64,000 nucleotides of DNA from Streptomyces ficellus (lineage in GTDB: Bacteria; Actinomycetota; Actinomycetes; Streptomycetales; Streptomycetaceae), in contig NZ_JAUEPL010000023.1 of the NCBI RefSeq assembly GCF_030406405.1, positions 1 to 64,000 of the forward strand, written 5' to 3'. Shown one piece after another: positions 13,859-21,029 of this stretch (positions are counted from its first letter, which is position 1; each line of letters opens with the position of its first letter). The translations under genes and the position numbers were made by a program. The notes beneath the pieces were generated by a model. It was not told the DNA's origin and made no database searches. It saw nothing but the letters and a program-made list of their open reading frames with translations.

Positions 13859-13979
13859 GGCCGGGGTGGGGAAAAGCCTTCGGGGTTGTCAGTGGCACGA
13901 CGTACGCTGGAGATCCAGAGGTTGTCGAGCGGCGAGAACCCCTGCAACGGGAGGTATGCGCAGGCCTGAGAGCCGGCCC

Positions 13980-14993
13980 ATGACTCAGACACCAGCAGCC
14001 CAGACCCAGCAGGCGCGAGCCCAGTTCACCGTCCCTGCCAAGCACCCGATGGTCACCGTGCTCGGCTCCGGTGACGCCCTGCTGCGCGTGATCGAGAAGG
14101 CGTTCCCGGCCGCCGACATCCATGTCCGGGGCAATGAGGTCAGCGCGGTGGGACCGGCGACGGAAGTCGCACTGATCCAGCGCCTGTTCGACGAGATGAT
14201 GCTCGTGCTCCGCACCGGGCAGCCGATGACGGAGGACGCGGTGGAACGCTCGATCGCCATGCTCAGGGCGAGCGAGAACGGCACGGCCGAGGCGGGTCAG
14301 GAGACCCCGGCCGAAGTGCTCACACAGAACATCCTCTCCAGCCGTGGCCGCACCATCCGTCCCAAGACGCTCAACCAGAAGCGGTACGTCGACGCGATCG
14401 ACAAGCACACCATCGTCTTCGGCATCGGCCCCGCCGGTACGGGCAAGACGTACCTGGCCATGGCCAAGGCGGTGCAGGCCCTGCAGTCCAAGCAGGTCAC
14501 CCGGATCATCCTGACCCGGCCGGCCGTCGAGGCGGGCGAGCGCCTGGGCTTCCTGCCCGGCACGCTGTACGAGAAGATCGACCCGTACCTGCGGCCGCTG
14601 TACGACGCCCTGCACGACATGCTCGACCCCGACTCGATCCCGCGCCTGATGGCGGCGGGCACGATCGAGGTCGCGCCGCTGGCGTACATGCGGGGCCGGA
14701 CGCTCAACGACGCCTTCATCATCCTGGACGAGGCGCAGAACACGAACCCCGAGCAGATGAAGATGTTCCTGACGCGCCTCGGATTCGACTCCAAGATCGT
14801 CATCACCGGTGACGTCACCCAGGTGGACCTGCCCGGCGGCACCAAGAGCGGCCTGCGGCAGGTCCGGGACATCCTGGAGGGCGTCGATGACGTCCACTTC
14901 TCGATACTGACTTCGAACGACGTCGTACGGCACAAGCTCGTCGGCCGTATCGTCGACGCGTACGAGAAGTACGACAACCAAAACGGGAAGTAG
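13980..14993 (+). CDS. phoH: PhoH family ATPase/RNase-like protein
   Basis: 337-aa PhoH-type P-loop ATPase, a helicase-like protein linked to RNA processing and placed beside ybeY in most bacteria. It has an N-terminal KH-like segment ([14 protein letters not shown]), Walker A GPAGTGKT at about residue 150, Walker [10 protein letters not shown] and the motif [11 protein letters not shown]. Start ATG 13980 (MTQTPAAQT) agrees with other Streptomyces PhoH; the ATG at 13956 has its GGGAGG too close to be useful. ybeY begins 12 bp after the stop. Confidence 0.93.
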
Positions 14994-15005
14994 CGACACA
15001 GCACC

Positions 15006-15503
15006 ATGTCGATCGACGTCAACAACGAGTCCGGCACCGAGGTCGACGAGCAGGCGATCCTCGACGTCGCCCGGTACGCGCTCGCGCGGATGCGCATCCA
15101 CCCCCTCTCCGAACTGTCGGTGATCGTGGTGGACACCGAGGCGATGGAGCAGCTGCACATCCAGTGGATGGACCTGCCGGGCCCGACGGACGTCATGTCC
15201 TTCCCGATGGACGAGCTGCGCCCGCCGTCCAAGGACGACGAGGAGCCCCCGCAGGGGCTCCTCGGTGACATCGTGCTCTGCCCGGAGGTCGCCGCCAAGC
15301 AGGGCCAGGAGGCCCCGACGCAGCACTCCATGGACGAGGAGCTCCAGCTCCTCACCGTCCACGGGGTGCTGCACCTGCTCGGATACGACCATGAGGAGCC
15401 GGACGAGAAGGCCGAGATGTTCGGGCTCCAGGCGGCGATCATCGACGGCTGGCGGGCGGAGAAGGGCCTCACCGGCCCCTCCCCGGCGCCGACCGTCTCA
15501 TGA
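15006..15503 (+). CDS. ybeY: Endoribonuclease YbeY (rRNA maturation factor)
   Basis: 165-aa zinc-dependent endoribonuclease acting in 16S rRNA 3'-end maturation and ribosome quality control. The signature H-x3-H-x5-H is seen in [11 protein letters not shown], and the N-terminal half has [15 protein letters not shown]. It sits between phoH and a CorC-like gene, and its stop overlaps the next ATG as ATGA; this order is conserved across Gram-positive bacteria. Confidence 0.95.
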
Positions 15504-16771
15504 CCGCCCAGATCGTCCTCGGCGCGGTCGCGCTGGTCGTGATCGCGTGGCTCGCGGCGTGCGCGGAGGCGGGCATCGCGCGCGTGTCCAGCTTCCGGGC
15601 CGCCGAGGCGGTACGGGCCGGGCGGCGCGGCGCCGACAAGCTGGCCCAGGTCGCCTCGGACCCGGTGCGGTATCTGAACGTGGCGCTGCTGGTGCGCGTC
15701 GCGTGCGAGATGGCGGCCGGGGTCATGGTCACGTACGTCTGCCTGAACGAGTTCGCGGAGACGTGGGCCGCGCTGCTCGTCGCGATAGGCGTGATGGTGC
15801 TCGTGTCGTACGTCGCCGTCGGCGTGTCGCCCCGCACCATCGGCCGTCAGCACCCGCTCAACACGGCAACCGCCGCCGCGTACGTCCTGCTCCCGCTGGC
15901 CCGCGTCATGGGCCCGGTGCCGCAACTGCTGATCCTCATCGGCAACGCGCTCACGCCCGGCAAGGGCTTCCGCAAGGGCCCCTTCGCCTCCGAGGCCGAG
16001 CTGCGCGCCATGGTCGACCTCGCCGAGCGCGAGTCGCTGATCGAGGACGACGAGCGGCGCATGGTCCACTCCGTCTTCGAACTCGGCGACACCCTCGTAC
16101 GGGAAGTGATGGTGCCGCGTACCGACCTCGTCTCCATCGAGCGGTACAAGACCATCCGCCAGGCCCTCACCCTGGCGCTGCGCTCCGGCTTCTCCCGCAT
16201 ACCGGTGACCGGCGAGAACGAGGACGACATCGTCGGCATCGTGTACCTGAAGGACCTGGTCCGCCGCACCCACATCAACCGCGACGCGGAGAACGACCTG
16301 GTCTCCACGGTGATGCGGCCCGCGGCCTTCGTCCCGGACACCAAGAACGCGGGCGACCTGCTGCGCGAGATGCAGAAGGAGCGCAACCACTGCGCGGTGG
16401 TGATCGACGAGTACGGCGGCACGGCCGGGATCGTCACCATCGAGGACATCCTGGAGGAGATCGTCGGCGAGATCACCGACGAGTACGACCGGGAACTGCC
16501 ACCGGTGGAAGAGCTCGGGGAGGGCCGCTACCGGGTCACGGCCCGCCTCGACATCGGCGACCTCGGGGAGCTGTTCGGGCTCGACGAGTACGACGACGAG
16601 GACGTCGAGACGGTGGGAGGGCTGCTCGCCAAGGCGCTGGGCCGCGTGCCCATCGCGGGCGCGTCGGCCGTGGTCCATCTGCCGGACGGCCGCGCCCTGC
16701 GCCTGACGGCCGAGTCCCCGGCGGGCCGCCGCAACAAGATCGTCACGGTGGTCGCGGAGCCCGTGGCGTGA
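15500..16771 (+). CDS. CNNM/CorC-like (hemolysin-family) membrane protein with DUF21 and CBS domains
   Basis: 423-aa transporter-type protein. Three to four hydrophobic helices (residues 1-140, DUF21) are followed by two CBS domains (starting [14 protein letters not shown] and ending [20 protein letters not shown]) and a C-terminal CorC_HlyC domain. The family mediates Mg2+/Co2+ efflux or regulation, with ATP-Mg sensed by the CBS pair. Overlaps ybeY upstream and the MmcQ/YjbR gene downstream by ATGA or GTGA, so the four genes form one operon. Confidence 0.9.
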
Positions 16772-17121
16772 CCCCGGACCAGCTCCGGGCGTTCTGCCTC
16801 TCCTTCAGCGACGCGGTGGAGGACTTCCCGTTCGGCCCGGAGACGTCGGTCTTCAAGGTGGCGGGCAAGATGTTCGCGCTGTCGGCCCTGGACGCCCGGC
16901 CGCTCACCGTCAACCTCAAGTGCGACCCCGAGCTCGCGCTCCGGCTGCGCGCCGAGCACCCGGCGATCGCGCCCGGCTACCACATGAACAAACGCCACTG
17001 GAACACGGTCACGGTCGCCGGCCTCCCCGACCGCCTGGTCCGCGAACTGATCGAGGACTCCTACGACCTCGTGGTCGCCGGCCTCCCCCGCGCGACCCGC
17101 CTCCGCCTGAACCGCCCGTAG
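16768..17121 (+). CDS. MmcQ/YjbR family DNA-binding-fold protein
   Basis: 117-aa CyaY-like-fold protein. FCLSFSDAVEDFPFGPETSVFKVAGKMF and the later GYHMNKRHWNTV match the YjbR/MmcQ family; molecular role is unknown although a double-wing DNA-binding fold has been proposed. GTG 16768 overlaps the upstream stop by GTGA. It is the last gene of the phoH operon before a lipoprotein gene with its own leader. Confidence 0.88.
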   Translation: MTPDQLRAFCLSFSDAVEDFPFGPETSVFKVAGKMFALSALDARPLTVNLKCDPELALRLRAEHPAIAPGYHMNKRHWNTVTVAGLPDRLVRELIEDSYDLVVAGLPRATRLRLNRP

Positions 17122-17246
17122 CCCCGCGCGCCCGGCCGTCTTCGGGCTGTGCGTGCGCTGTGTATTCTCAGCGCGGCCGATCACGGCGGGGAGGGGGGAA
17201 CCACAGCTCCCCGGGAATATCGACATCCCTAGGGAGAAACACCTTC

Positions 17247-17954
17247 ATGCGTAGCCGTATGCGCCGCGGCGTGGCCGCCGCGTTCACCGTTTCCGCGCTC
17301 TGCCTCACCGCCGCGTGCGGCGGCTCCTCCGACAAGGGCGCCGACAGCGGCAAGGCCGAGGACACCGGCAAGGAGGCGCCCGCCGCTGCCGCCCCGCTGA
17401 CCGCCGCCCAGATGAAGGCGGGCCTGCTGGAGGTCAAGGACCTGCCGGCCGGGTGGAAGACCGAGCCGGCCGGGAGCTCGGACCAGGTGGCCAAGACGGA
17501 CAAGCCCGAGTGCCGGCCGCTCGCCGTCCTGATGACCGACAAGATCGCCGGGGCGACGCTGGGCGGCAACCAGGAGTTCGGCGACAAGAACAGCAGCATC
17601 CTCGCCCACCAGGTCTTCACCTTCCAGGACAGCAAGGGCGCCGAGGACTTCGTGACGGGCATCGGCACCGCCGTCGCCGCCTGCGCCAAGGGCGAGATGA
17701 CGATGGAGGGCAACAAGGTCCCGATCACGGCCCAGAAGGTGGCCGCCCCGCAGGTCGGTGAGGGAACGGAGGCGCTCCGTCTGACCATGGAGATGGCGCC
17801 GGGCATCAAGATCGAGGCCGACATCCTGGTCGTCCGCCAGGGTGCGGGCGTGGCCCGCGTCGCCTACGTCCCGTCCCCGCCCTCCACCCACAAGGACTTC
17901 GACGCCCTGGCCAAGCTGGCCGGCGACAAGTTCGTCAAGGGTGCCCAGAGCTGA
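17247..17954 (+). CDS. Secreted lipoprotein of unknown function
   Basis: 235-aa predicted lipoprotein. The signal peptide has a basic start (MRSRMRRG), a hydrophobic core and the lipobox LTAAC, with cysteine at about residue 23, followed by a Ser/Gly/Lys-rich tether. The mature part contains AQMKAGLLEVKDLPAGWK, a PknH/sensor-like extracellular domain pattern, plus two further cysteines that could pair. AGGGAGAAACACC precedes ATG 17247. A TATTCT at 17163-17168 with TTCGGG 16 nt upstream is a weak promoter candidate. Function not assigned. Confidence 0.8.
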   Translation: MRSRMRRGVAAAFTVSALCLTAACGGSSDKGADSGKAEDTGKEAPAAAAPLTAAQMKAGLLEVKDLPAGWKTEPAGSSDQVAKTDKPECRPLAVLMTDKIAGATLGGNQEFGDKNSSILAHQVFTFQDSKGAEDFVTGIGTAVAACAKGEMTMEGNKVPITAQKVAAPQVGEGTEALRLTMEMAPGIKIEADILVVRQGAGVARVAYVPSPPSTHKDFDALAKLAGDKFVKGAQS

Positions 17955-17991
17955 TCGCGGGCAGCGATGGGGGCCGACTTATGCTCGGGGC

Positions 17992-18345
17992 ATGACACAG
18001 AGCACCGACCTCGGCCCCGAGGACCGCAAGATCATCACGCTGGCGCGCAGCGCCCGTGCCCGTAACGGTGTGCCGGAGGGCGCGGCGGTGCGGGACGAGA
18101 CCGGGCGTACGTACGTCGCCGGGACCGTCGCCCTGGAGTCGCTGAAGCTCAGCGCGCTCCAGACGGCGGTGGCGATGGCCGTGGCCAGCGGCGCGCGGTC
18201 GCTGGAGGCCGCGGCCGTGGTCACCGAGGCCGAAGCCGCCTCCGACGCGGACCGCGCCGCGGTGCGGGATCTGGGCGGCGCGGAGACGCCCGTGCTGCTG
18301 GCCGGCCCCGATGGCGAGCTGCGCGCCACGGTGAGCGCCGGCTGA
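17992..18345 (+). CDS. Cytidine deaminase homologue lacking zinc and catalytic residues
   Basis: 117-aa protein in the place where cdd lies next to era in Gram-positive bacteria. GAAVRDETGRTYVAGTVALES aligns in shape with the CDA core that runs VGAA...GxNxEN, but the expected (C/H)AE is replaced by SALQT and the PCxxC pair is missing; the protein has no cysteine at all. It therefore cannot bind the catalytic zinc in the normal way and is probably a pseudoenzyme or nucleotide sensor. Pipelines usually call it cytidine deaminase. It lies about 170 bp upstream of era. Confidence 0.72.
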   Translation: MTQSTDLGPEDRKIITLARSARARNGVPEGAAVRDETGRTYVAGTVALESLKLSALQTAVAMAVASGARSLEAAAVVTEAEAASDADRAAVRDLGGAETPVLLAGPDGELRATVSAG

Positions 18346-18518
18346 CGCGCGCCTGCCCGGGGAGGCGGGCCGGTTCCCGTCCAGGGCGGGCCCGCCTCTC
18401 ATCGGCGCCTCGCGGGCGGCGTGGCCGGGCGTCCCACGGCACCGCCCGCCAAGATCACCGAGGCCTCCACGGGGCCATGCGGTACGTGGGGCCGCCCGCA
18501 TCGGGGAGAATGGCCCCC

Positions 18519-19460
18519 ATGAGCGCTCGTAACCCTGAAACCGAAACCGCCCACCGGGCCGGCTTCGCCTGCTTCGTCGGCCGCCCCAACGCGGGCAAGT
18601 CCACCCTCACGAACGCTCTGGTCGGACAGAAGGTGGCCATCACCTCCAACCGGCCGCAGACCACCCGCCACACCGTGCGCGGCATCGTGCACCGCCCCGA
18701 CGCGCAGCTCGTCCTGGTCGACACCCCCGGCCTGCACAAGCCGCGCACGCTGCTCGGGGAGCGGCTCAACGACATCGTCCGCACCACCTGGGCCGAGGTC
18801 GACGTGATCGGCTTCTGCCTGCCCGCCAACGAGAAGCTGGGCCCCGGCGACCGGTTCATCGCCAAGGAACTGGCCGGGATCAAGAAGAGCCCCAAGGTCG
18901 CGATCATCACCAAGACCGACCTGGTCGACTCCAAGACCCTCGCCGAGCAGCTCATCGCCATCGACCAGCTCGGCAAGGAGCTGGGCTTCGAGTGGCAGGA
19001 GATCGTCCCGGTCTCCGCCGTCGCCGGCAAGCAGGTCCAGCTCCTCGCCGACCTGCTCACCCCGCTGCTCCCCGAGAGCCCGCCGCTCTACCCGGAGGGC
19101 GACCTCACGGACGAGCCGGAGCAGGTCATGGTCGCCGAATTGATCCGCGAGGCGGCGCTCGAAGGCGTACGGGACGAGCTGCCGCACTCGATCGCGGTGG
19201 TCGTCGAGGAGATGCTGCCCCGCGAGGACCGCCCCGCGGACAAGCCGCTGCTGGACATCCACGCCAACGTCTACATCGAGCGCCCCAGCCAGAAGGGCAT
19301 CATCATCGGCCCGAAGGGCAAGCGGCTGAAGGAAGTCGGCACCAAGTCGCGCAAGCACATCGAGGCGCTGCTCGGTACGCCCGTCTTCTTGGACCTGCAC
19401 GTCAAGGTCGCCAAGGACTGGCAGCGCGACCCCAAGCAGCTGCGCAAGCTCGGTTTCTGA
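18519..19460 (+). CDS. era: GTPase Era
   Basis: 313-aa GTPase that binds the 3' end of 16S rRNA and checks 30S assembly. G1 GRPNAGKS at residues 21-28, G3 DTPG, G4 TKTD, and a C-terminal KH domain with GIIIGPKGKRLKEVG. ATG 18519 is chosen because GGGGAGA (18503-18509) is properly spaced; ATG 18510 would lie too close. It functionally pairs with ybeY upstream in rRNA maturation. Convergent with the emfourin gene, separated by 45 bp. Confidence 0.96.
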   Translation: MSARNPETETAHRAGFACFVGRPNAGKSTLTNALVGQKVAITSNRPQTTRHTVRGIVHRPDAQLVLVDTPGLHKPRTLLGERLNDIVRTTWAEVDVIGFCLPANEKLGPGDRFIAKELAGIKKSPKVAIITKTDLVDSKTLAEQLIAIDQLGKELGFEWQEIVPVSAVAGKQVQLLADLLTPLLPESPPLYPEGDLTDEPEQVMVAELIREAALEGVRDELPHSIAVVVEEMLPREDRPADKPLLDIHANVYIERPSQKGIIIGPKGKRLKEVGTKSRKHIEALLGTPVFLDLHVKVAKDWQRDPKQLRKLGF

Positions 19461-19505
19461 CCGGCGCCGGGCGCTTCGAGGCCGACCGCGCCCGCAAGAG
19501 TCCTT

Positions 19506-19772
19506 CTACGCGCCTTCCTTGAGCACCCGGGAGATCAGCTCCCGCTGAGCCTCGGTCAGCCCCGGGTCCGCGCAGTGGAGGGTGCGGTCGCCGACCGTGA
19601 TCGTGTAGTGGAACCCGTCCGGCACGCCTACTCCCGGCCCGCCGCGGCCGTCCGCGAGCGCCGCCTCGGCCAGGGCGTGCCACTCGGGGGCGTCGGGGCG
19701 GTCCGAGGTGTCGACCTCGGCCCGCCGCTCGATGCCCGCGAAACCACCTGTGCGCGTCACCCGAATCCGCAT
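19506..19772 (-). CDS. Emfourin-like protealysin inhibitor
   Basis: 88-aa small protein (MRIRVTRTGGFAGIERRAEV start; YTITVGDRTLHCADPGLTE) that matches my recollection of emfourin, the cytoplasmic inhibitor of protealysin-type M4 proteases described in Serratia. It is 9 bp downstream of an M4 protease gene on the same strand, as expected for a protease-inhibitor operon. No signal peptide, consistent with action inside the cell. Confidence 0.8.
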   Translation of the reverse strand: MRIRVTRTGGFAGIERRAEVDTSDRPDAPEWHALAEAALADGRGGPGVGVPDGFHYTITVGDRTLHCADPGLTEAQRELISRVLKEGA

Positions 19773-19781
19773 GGGCCCTGT

Positions 19782-20870
19782 CTACTCCGCCGGCACCCCC
19801 ACCGTCGACCACGCCTTCACGACCGCGTCGTGCTCCGCGCCGCCCGCGCCGAACCGTTCGCGGGCCGCCGCCACCGACAGCCGGGCGAAATCGGCGAACT
19901 CCGCGTCCACCGCCAGCTCGCCACGGGTCAGCACGTCGTACCAGATCCGCCCCGCCCGCTCCCAGGCGTTGCCGCCCAGTGCCGTGGCGACGAGGTAGAA
20001 GGCGTGGTTGGGGATGCCCGAGTTGATGTGCACGCCCCCGTTGTCGGCGCCCGTGCGCACATAGTCGGCCATCCTCGCGGGCTGCGGGTCCTTGCCGAGG
20101 ACGTCGTCGTCGTACGCCGTGCCGGGGGCCTTCATCGAGCGCAGCGCCACGCCCTGCACCCCCTCCGCCAGCAGCCCGGCGCCGATCAGCCAGTCCGCCT
20201 CCCCGGCCGTCTGCCCGAGCGCGTACTGCTTGACCAGCGAGCCGAAGACGTCCGACATCGACTCGTTCAGCGCTCCCGGCTGGCCGAAGTACGCCAGGTT
20301 CGCCGTGTACTGCGTGACGCCGTGGGCCAGTTCGTGGCCGATGACGTCCACCGCGATGGTGAAGTCCAGGAAGATCCGGCCGTCACCGTCGCCGAACACC
20401 ATCTGCTCGCCGTTCCAGAAGGCGTTGCCGTAGTCCCGGTCGTAGTGGACCGTCGCGTCCAGCGGCAGCCCGGACCCGTCGATCGAGTTGCGCCCGTACG
20501 CGGCACGGAAGAGGTCGAAGGTCGCGCCCAGACCGGCGTACGCGCGGTTGACCGTCGCGTCCCTCGCCGGCTCCTCGCCCTCGCCGCGCGCCTTGGTGCC
20601 CGGCAGCGTGGTCGTGTGCCCGGCGTCGTAGACCGTGCGGTGCGGCTTGTCGACGGGCGCGTCCGCCGCCAGGGGCACGGGTGTCGCGCCGGTGACCGTC
20701 GTCAGCCGGCGGGCCGTGCGGTTGGCGGCGTCGGCGACGAGGGTGCGGCGGGCGGCCGCCGCGATCGCGGGGTCGGAGGACCGGGCCAGCCGGTCGAGCA
20801 GGTGGGGCGGCACGATCCCGCAGAACACGGAAGGACAGGAGGAACCAGAAGAACCGGGAGGAGGCGTCAT
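19782..20870 (-). CDS. M4 family metallopeptidase (protealysin-like)
   Basis: 362-aa thermolysin-family zinc protease. Zinc ligands and catalytic residues: HELAHG, the downstream Glu in NESMSD, and the catalytic His region GGVHINSGIPNHAFYL. Instead of a signal peptide and long FTP propeptide it has a short N-terminal piece with CGIVPPHLLDRLA, the protealysin-type precursor motif, so it is likely made without a classical secretion signal. ATG 20870 was taken rather than the TTG 9 bp upstream. Operonic with the emfourin-like inhibitor and divergent from leuA. Confidence 0.9.
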   Translation of the reverse strand: MTPPPGSSGSSCPSVFCGIVPPHLLDRLARSSDPAIAAAARRTLVADAANRTARRLTTVTGATPVPLAADAPVDKPHRTVYDAGHTTTLPGTKARGEGEEPARDATVNRAYAGLGATFDLFRAAYGRNSIDGSGLPLDATVHYDRDYGNAFWNGEQMVFGDGDGRIFLDFTIAVDVIGHELAHGVTQYTANLAYFGQPGALNESMSDVFGSLVKQYALGQTAGEADWLIGAGLLAEGVQGVALRSMKAPGTAYDDDVLGKDPQPARMADYVRTGADNGGVHINSGIPNHAFYLVATALGGNAWERAGRIWYDVLTRGELAVDAEFADFARLSVAAARERFGAGGAEHDAVVKAWSTVGVPAE

Positions 20871-21029
20871 GTTTCGCAATGTGGCAGTGAGTCACCAAGC
20901 TGTCACCCCATGCGACAAGGATTGATGAGAACGAGTGATACGTCACCGTTCGACCGTTACCTCACGGGAATCCCGCATACTGGAACGGCGCCCCGCTCTC
21001 CGCGTCACTCGGCTACGCTTCTGCGCATC

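Follow-up and report, generated by a model that had tools for sequence, protein, structure and literature searches.

The gene clusters that come closest to the locus described here bring phoH, ybeY, corC-type, cdd and era genes together in different combinations. In enterobacteria, corC(ybeX) lies in one operon with ybeZ(phoH) and ybeY and is linked to ribosome maturation and Mg2+ in the available sections of PMC12421838. The same sections state, citing Sarigul et al. 2024, that an E. coli corC mutant accumulates 17S pre-rRNA and that added Mg2+ suppresses growth phenotypes. In E. coli, era is located outside the ybeZ-ybeY-corC-lnt operon, while the S. aureus cluster ybeZ-ybeY-dgkA-cdd-era-recO carries cdd directly before era (PMC6738653, accessible part). 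According to the same part of that report, no interaction took place in S. aureus between Era and the Cdd encoded beside it. The protein to be compared is the homotetrameric cytidine deaminase (Cdd; T-CDA, TIGR01354), represented by B. subtilis 1jtk, 2d30 and mouse 2fr5.

The window, a stretch of 64,000 nucleotides from Streptomyces ficellus, contains a related cluster, in which phoH, ybeY, CNNM/CorC, yjbR, a lipoprotein gene, the gene of a small protein here denoted CddL, and era follow each other on the plus strand (Table 1). The order of phoH, ybeY and the CNNM/CorC gene is the same as in the enterobacterial operon, which differs in that it continues to lnt (PMC12421838, sections as above). 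The S. aureus operon differs in that its cdd is presented as a gene for cytidine deaminase and in that dgkA lies between ybeY and cdd (PMC6738653, part as above). The initial annotation had assigned the gene to a classical ybeY-cdd-era neighbourhood; the neighbourhood is indeed kept, but three genes are inserted between ybeY and CddL. The CddL reading frame runs from an ATG start codon to a TGA stop codon and encodes 117 amino acids with zero cysteines. A scan for sigma-70 promoters and terminators, which is blind to other promoter types, returned none in 16700-19800, and PADLOC yielded no match. Just downstream of era, on the opposite strand, positions 19506-20879 (-) of the window hold a thermolysin-type M4 metallopeptidase gene (PF01447/PF02868) and, after it, a gene for an 88-aa emfourin (PF20242, E 1.9e-15), likely the inhibitor of the protease.

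Table 1. Features of the CddL locus in the window (coordinates, strand and basis of assignment).
Feature	Position	Strand	Basis
PhoH (ybeZ-type ATPase); real start may be further in	13866..14993	+	
ybeY, rRNA endoribonuclease; 4-base overlap with CNNM	15006..15503	+	
CNNM/CBS/CorC_HlyC membrane protein, most constant CddL neighbour	15500..16771	+	
YjbR-family gene, between CNNM and CddL	16768..17121	+	
Putative lipoprotein; PknH_C match weak and under the cut-off; ends 37 bases before CddL	17247..17954	+	
CddL (117 aa), predicted zinc-less pseudo-cytidine-deaminase	17992..18345	+	profiles, predicted fold
Codons E10-R24: N-terminal helix; gained E10, K13, L17; R24 invariant	18019..18063	+	model and alignment
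Codons R34-Y41: strand-turn-strand hairpin; gained near-invariant R34, D35, T40, Y41	18091..18114	+	model and alignment
Codons S54-A55-L56, where Cdd has Cys-Ala-Glu (zinc ligand and catalytic Glu)	18151..18159	+	alignment
A83-R88, replacing the Cdd PCxPCGxCR region: PCG lost, D87 in place of the second ligand Cys	18238..18255	+	alignment
era, ribosome-assembly GTPase (MMR_HSR1 and KH_2)	18519..19460	+	

The association extends well beyond this genome. CNNM was found upstream of CddL in 47 of 48 loci outside its own family (gap below 200 bases in 41), and Era downstream in at least 39 of the 48 (within 300 bases in 29), a lower bound since the Era counts depend on the length of the stretch taken and some stretches are short. 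Among 73 full-length Streptomycetaceae loci compared by tblastn (7 of the 80 loci, shorter than 8 kb, were left out), CNNM is located upstream in 70, Era downstream in 55, and YjbR between in 59. The lipoprotein gene of the window was detected in 5 of these 73 loci. A Tsukamurella record lists, in this order, PhoH, ybeY, a hemolysin family protein (CNNM), WP_068739318.1, era, two opposite-strand genes and recO, with 4-base overlaps between CNNM and CddL and between CddL and era. This WP_068739318.1 (L224:4001-4324) is a zinc-less CddL that bears the name 'cytidine deaminase' in RefSeq; a search against NCBIfam at E 0.001 matched no family, so that these models give the public name no support. 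Rv2365c of M. tuberculosis, the gene between the CNNM gene and era, we take to be the likely CddL counterpart. It is labelled ydbL in the accessible part of PMC6528289. No description of CddL was found in the available text of the literature searched, with subscription papers outside the search.

CddL is homologous to homotetrameric Cdd, as profiles, predicted fold and gene order agree, even though single-sequence comparisons hardly register the relationship. Taken alone, the protein matched no Pfam family up to E 10, reached E 0.019 and 15 bits against the NCBIfam cytidine deaminase model NF009076 (cut-off 216), and gave a best E of 0.13 in a phmmer search of the PDB; scans of its own genome with PF00383 and TIGR01354, again up to E 10, did not return it. 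When 23 members were scanned singly, 13 matched the cytidine deaminase model NF005314 (best E 0.0027), and no Pfam family was matched by more than two. Three alignments were then used: 23 CddL members (A1), 14 Cdd of other classes whose genes follow CNNM (A2), and 50 diverse CddL members (A3). An hmmsearch of the PDB with A1 retrieved 12 sequences, all of them named cytidine deaminase or CDA, with 2d30 as the best (E 6.3e-5). Comparison of A3 with the era-linked Cdd of A2 by hhalign resulted in a probability of 98.6 and an E of 7.5e-16 over 107 columns. The AlphaFold2 model of CddL built on A3 (pLDDT 96.0, pTM 0.89) resembles T-CDA over residues 7-117; Foldseek ranked Cdd 2d30 first (E 1.2e-7) among 63 matches at E <= 0.001, and VIA-align superposed the model on mouse Cdd 2fr5 with Z 15.7 and an rmsd of 2.0 over 109 aligned residues. 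Of the best 50 PDB entries in VIA-align, 49 are titled deaminases. The deaminase fold proposed in the initial annotation thus agrees with the structure prediction. Taken together, CddL appears to form a pseudoenzyme branch of T-CDA that fits no Pfam family.

What separates CddL from T-CDA is the absence of the zinc ligands, the catalytic Glu, most nucleoside-binding residues and the LLPxxF tail. For the product of the S. ficellus gene, the zinc ligands, the C/HAE and PCxxC motifs and any cysteine had been described as missing, which holds. The losses are also conserved across Streptomyces: none of 80 Streptomycetaceae relatives (the best 80 of 276 loci encoding one, from Streptomyces, Actinacidiphila and Kitasatospora) has Cys, C/HAE or PCxxC, and at positions 54-56, where Cdd has CAE, 79 show SAL and one TAL. 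C/HAE and PCxxC are likewise found in 0 of the 50 diverse members. Residues were counted in a joint alignment of these 50 CddL with 14 Cdd, numbered by the Cdd row L150. C60, E62, C93 and C96 are each present in 14/14 Cdd vs 0/50 CddL, the replacements being mostly S/T for C60, L/V for E62, a gap for C93 and D for C96. A Cys occurs somewhere in 11 of the 50 CddL rows, in none of them in a ligand column. The members L190 (1489-1851) and L204 (1501-1929) still keep two Cdd remnants, AYAPY/AYVP and VEN, with the catalytic residues all gone.

The nucleoside pocket has been eroded as well. F31 is kept in 0/50 CddL, Y28 in 1, N52 in 2, N49 in 4 and E51 in 7; these residues we take, from T-CDA structures, to bind the nucleoside. 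The C-terminal LLPxxF motif of Cdd is missing, with 0-1 of 50 rows keeping it per position. Conversely, CddL has gained residues that occur in at most 2 of the 14 Cdd, namely L17 (50/50), E10, K13, D35 and R34 (49/50 each), Y41 (48/50), T40 (47/50) and S66 (45/50). The AlphaFold2 structure places E10-L17 in the first helix and R34-Y41 within the first two strands and the turn that joins them; the motif VRDxxGRTY, which spans this hairpin, is a signature of CddL.

These patterns bear on the ligand-sensing role that had been suggested for the dead fold. Pseudoenzymes of nucleotide metabolism can turn into sensors, and the old pocket of CddL might still take up a nucleoside or nucleotide of the pyrimidine type, with CddL signalling to Era or CNNM; that the Cdd fold is kept at high model confidence is in line with this. 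However, most nucleoside-binding residues of Cdd have disappeared together with the tail, and the gained residues cluster outside the pocket positions, some in the N-terminal helix and the others in the hairpin. The pocket losses make nucleoside sensing through the old pocket improbable.

CddL is under purifying selection as a protein, as indicated by its low dN/dS. The median NG86 value is 0.193 for CddL (80 loci, 3160 pairs), compared with 0.164 for Era (55), 0.183 for CNNM (70) and 0.113 for YbeY (49); as the loci are the top matches to CddL, the figure describes close relatives. In a class survey by single-protein search (393 genomes, 122 genera), CddL was detected in 297 genomes and 94 genera, with an internal stop in only six among the matches listed. 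Its absence from the other 96 genomes means that it is not generally essential. In 25 of 26 CddL-less genomes checked (20 from the class survey and 6 from the search of the phylum described below), the Era locus was found, with CNNM near Era in 22, in 19 of them with no more than 210 bases between the matches; in 3, no CNNM lay within the 1.5 kb examined. CNNM beside Era without CddL implies that the job of CddL is dispensable in those genomes. With filters switched off, an HMM scan of these 25 CddL-less Era loci gave nothing better than E 0.98. Three CddL-less genomes (L155, L159, L165) carry a long reading frame for a putative EamA-type transporter between CNNM and era. Presence or absence of CddL requires at least 3 changes on the CNNM tree and 7 on the less resolved Era tree.

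A patchy occurrence of this kind would also be expected of a neutral relic, in which the protein decays and only the DNA matters, as spacing or as a ribosome-binding site or promoter for era: 96 of 393 class genomes lack the gene, the CNNM tree calls for several changes, and no essential role is evident. Against it stand a dN/dS close to the values of Era and CNNM, gained residues that 47-50 of 50 members share, and the spread over most genera with few interrupted copies, so that a mere relic is very unlikely. A further alternative is a new enzyme with another, zinc-free catalytic activity on the Cdd fold. The gained polar, near-invariant set E10, K13, R34, D35, T40 and Y41 could be read that way, but these residues map to the first helix and to strands one and two, apart from the alignment positions that the old active site occupies; the best 50 VIA-align entries offer no precedent, which excludes nothing. 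Overall, such an activity has a very low probability.

A Cdd-type match at E 0.001 was obtained with TIGR01354 in 353 of the 393 class genomes, 161 of them over the cut-off, counts that may include a few CddL as weak matches (e.g. in G009, E 6.7e-12). At least 19 class genomes without a Cdd match carry CddL (19 of 20 among the genomes listed; 20 more genomes lack a Cdd match). A regulatory or structural subunit of active Cdd in a mixed tetramer, to which the shared fold and the wide occurrence of Cdd-type matches would be suited, is the least probable of these alternatives, since CddL is kept in Cdd-less genomes, and the separate Cdd of the S. ficellus genome sits elsewhere, adjoining the thymidine phosphorylase gene deoA.

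The origin of CddL can be approached through the proteins that occupy the same slot in other classes. A search of 396 genomes of the phylum with A1 resulted in 56 matches. The class of S. ficellus accounts for 35 of them, and the other 21 are weak matches in other classes, of which 19 were examined (G514 and G540 were left out); these 19 were found by their resemblance to CddL, and among the 340 unmatched genomes only class members were followed up. All 19 outside-class proteins have CAE, 18 together with PCxxC and one with CCxxC. In 14 of the 19, CNNM is the immediate upstream neighbour of the Cdd gene, with 36-368 bases between the ends of the two matches, and in 11 of the 14 the DNA examined includes Era as well; the other five lie away from a CNNM-era locus. 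TIGR01354 scored over its cut-off in all 19 genomes, with one match in 17 and two in 2, and the CNNM-adjacent Cdd is the sole match of its genome in 14/14. T-CDA thus shares with CddL not only profile homology but, in other classes, also the position after CNNM and before era. Since an intact Cdd occupies the same slot there, CddL most likely descends, without a change of place, from an active Cdd that an ancestor encoded between corC(CNNM) and era.

In the gene tree, CddL forms one clade with 100/100 support (17 of the 50 rows used). A single clade of CddL and era-linked Cdd was considered and is absent from the best tree, where long branches occur and the two are not grouped; the joint clade is not rejected (p-AU 0.177). 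In the CddL tree, L190 and L204 split off before all others; the CNNM and Era trees, however, have them nested, which points either to parallel loop loss or to a misled tree of a short gene. A ladder of stepwise decay (L190, L204, L195/L197, L194, rest), suggested by the CddL tree, was discarded as an order of descent, as the CNNM and Era trees place those families inside the class. Because L190 and L204 share VRDxxGRTY, separate inactivations are unlikely. The zinc site and the catalytic Glu would have been lost probably once, before the class diversified. On the simplest history, the Cdd in the slot became redundant and was retired in place, while most of the class has a separate Cdd for nucleoside salvage.

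The earlier picture of a dead deaminase fold retained near era has the support of the sequence profile, the predicted fold, the gene order and the purifying selection. Inactivity itself is what we infer from the sequence: CddL should neither bind zinc in the way of Cdd nor deaminate. It is highly probable that CddL is a pseudoenzyme of the homotetrameric Cdd fold with a non-catalytic role exerted at the protein level. The genes around it hint at rRNA maturation and Mg2+. For the mechanism, a tentative proposal, possible though short of an even chance, is that CddL binds a product of its own cluster and thereby tunes the Mg2+-dependent rRNA-maturation module encoded by phoH-ybeY-corC-era. CddL would act as a small, probably oligomeric binding protein that makes contact through its N-terminal helix and the hairpin with VRDxxGRTY, and its partner might be the cytosolic CBS/CorC part of CNNM in the first place and Era in the second. 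CNNM is ranked above Era with low confidence, by analogy with S. aureus, because Era did not interact there with the Cdd of its operon. A structural role in ribosome assembly, as the initial annotation had it, fares unevenly: gene association speaks for it, but CNNM is a more constant neighbour of CddL than Era, and the gene order may reflect mere neighbourhood. It is rather unlikely that CddL is a dedicated soluble subunit of CNNM/CorC in Actinomycetes, an adaptor made from a retired metabolic enzyme, which would connect Mg2+ handling at the membrane to 30S maturation driven by Era and YbeY, with the first helix and the VRDxxGRTY hairpin as its interface.

If the reading of CddL as a pseudoenzyme with a non-catalytic role is true, a protein that a public record names 'cytidine deaminase' becomes a class-wide pseudoenzyme family, and pathway predictions are wrong where they take genes of this kind for pyrimidine salvage. 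CddL is then also a candidate for a part still missing from the PhoH-YbeY-CorC-Era cluster, in which the connection of Mg2+ with rRNA maturation lacks an explanation. With an intact enzyme in the same slot elsewhere and leftover Cdd loops in some members, the family would make a good case of an enzyme retired in place and re-employed.
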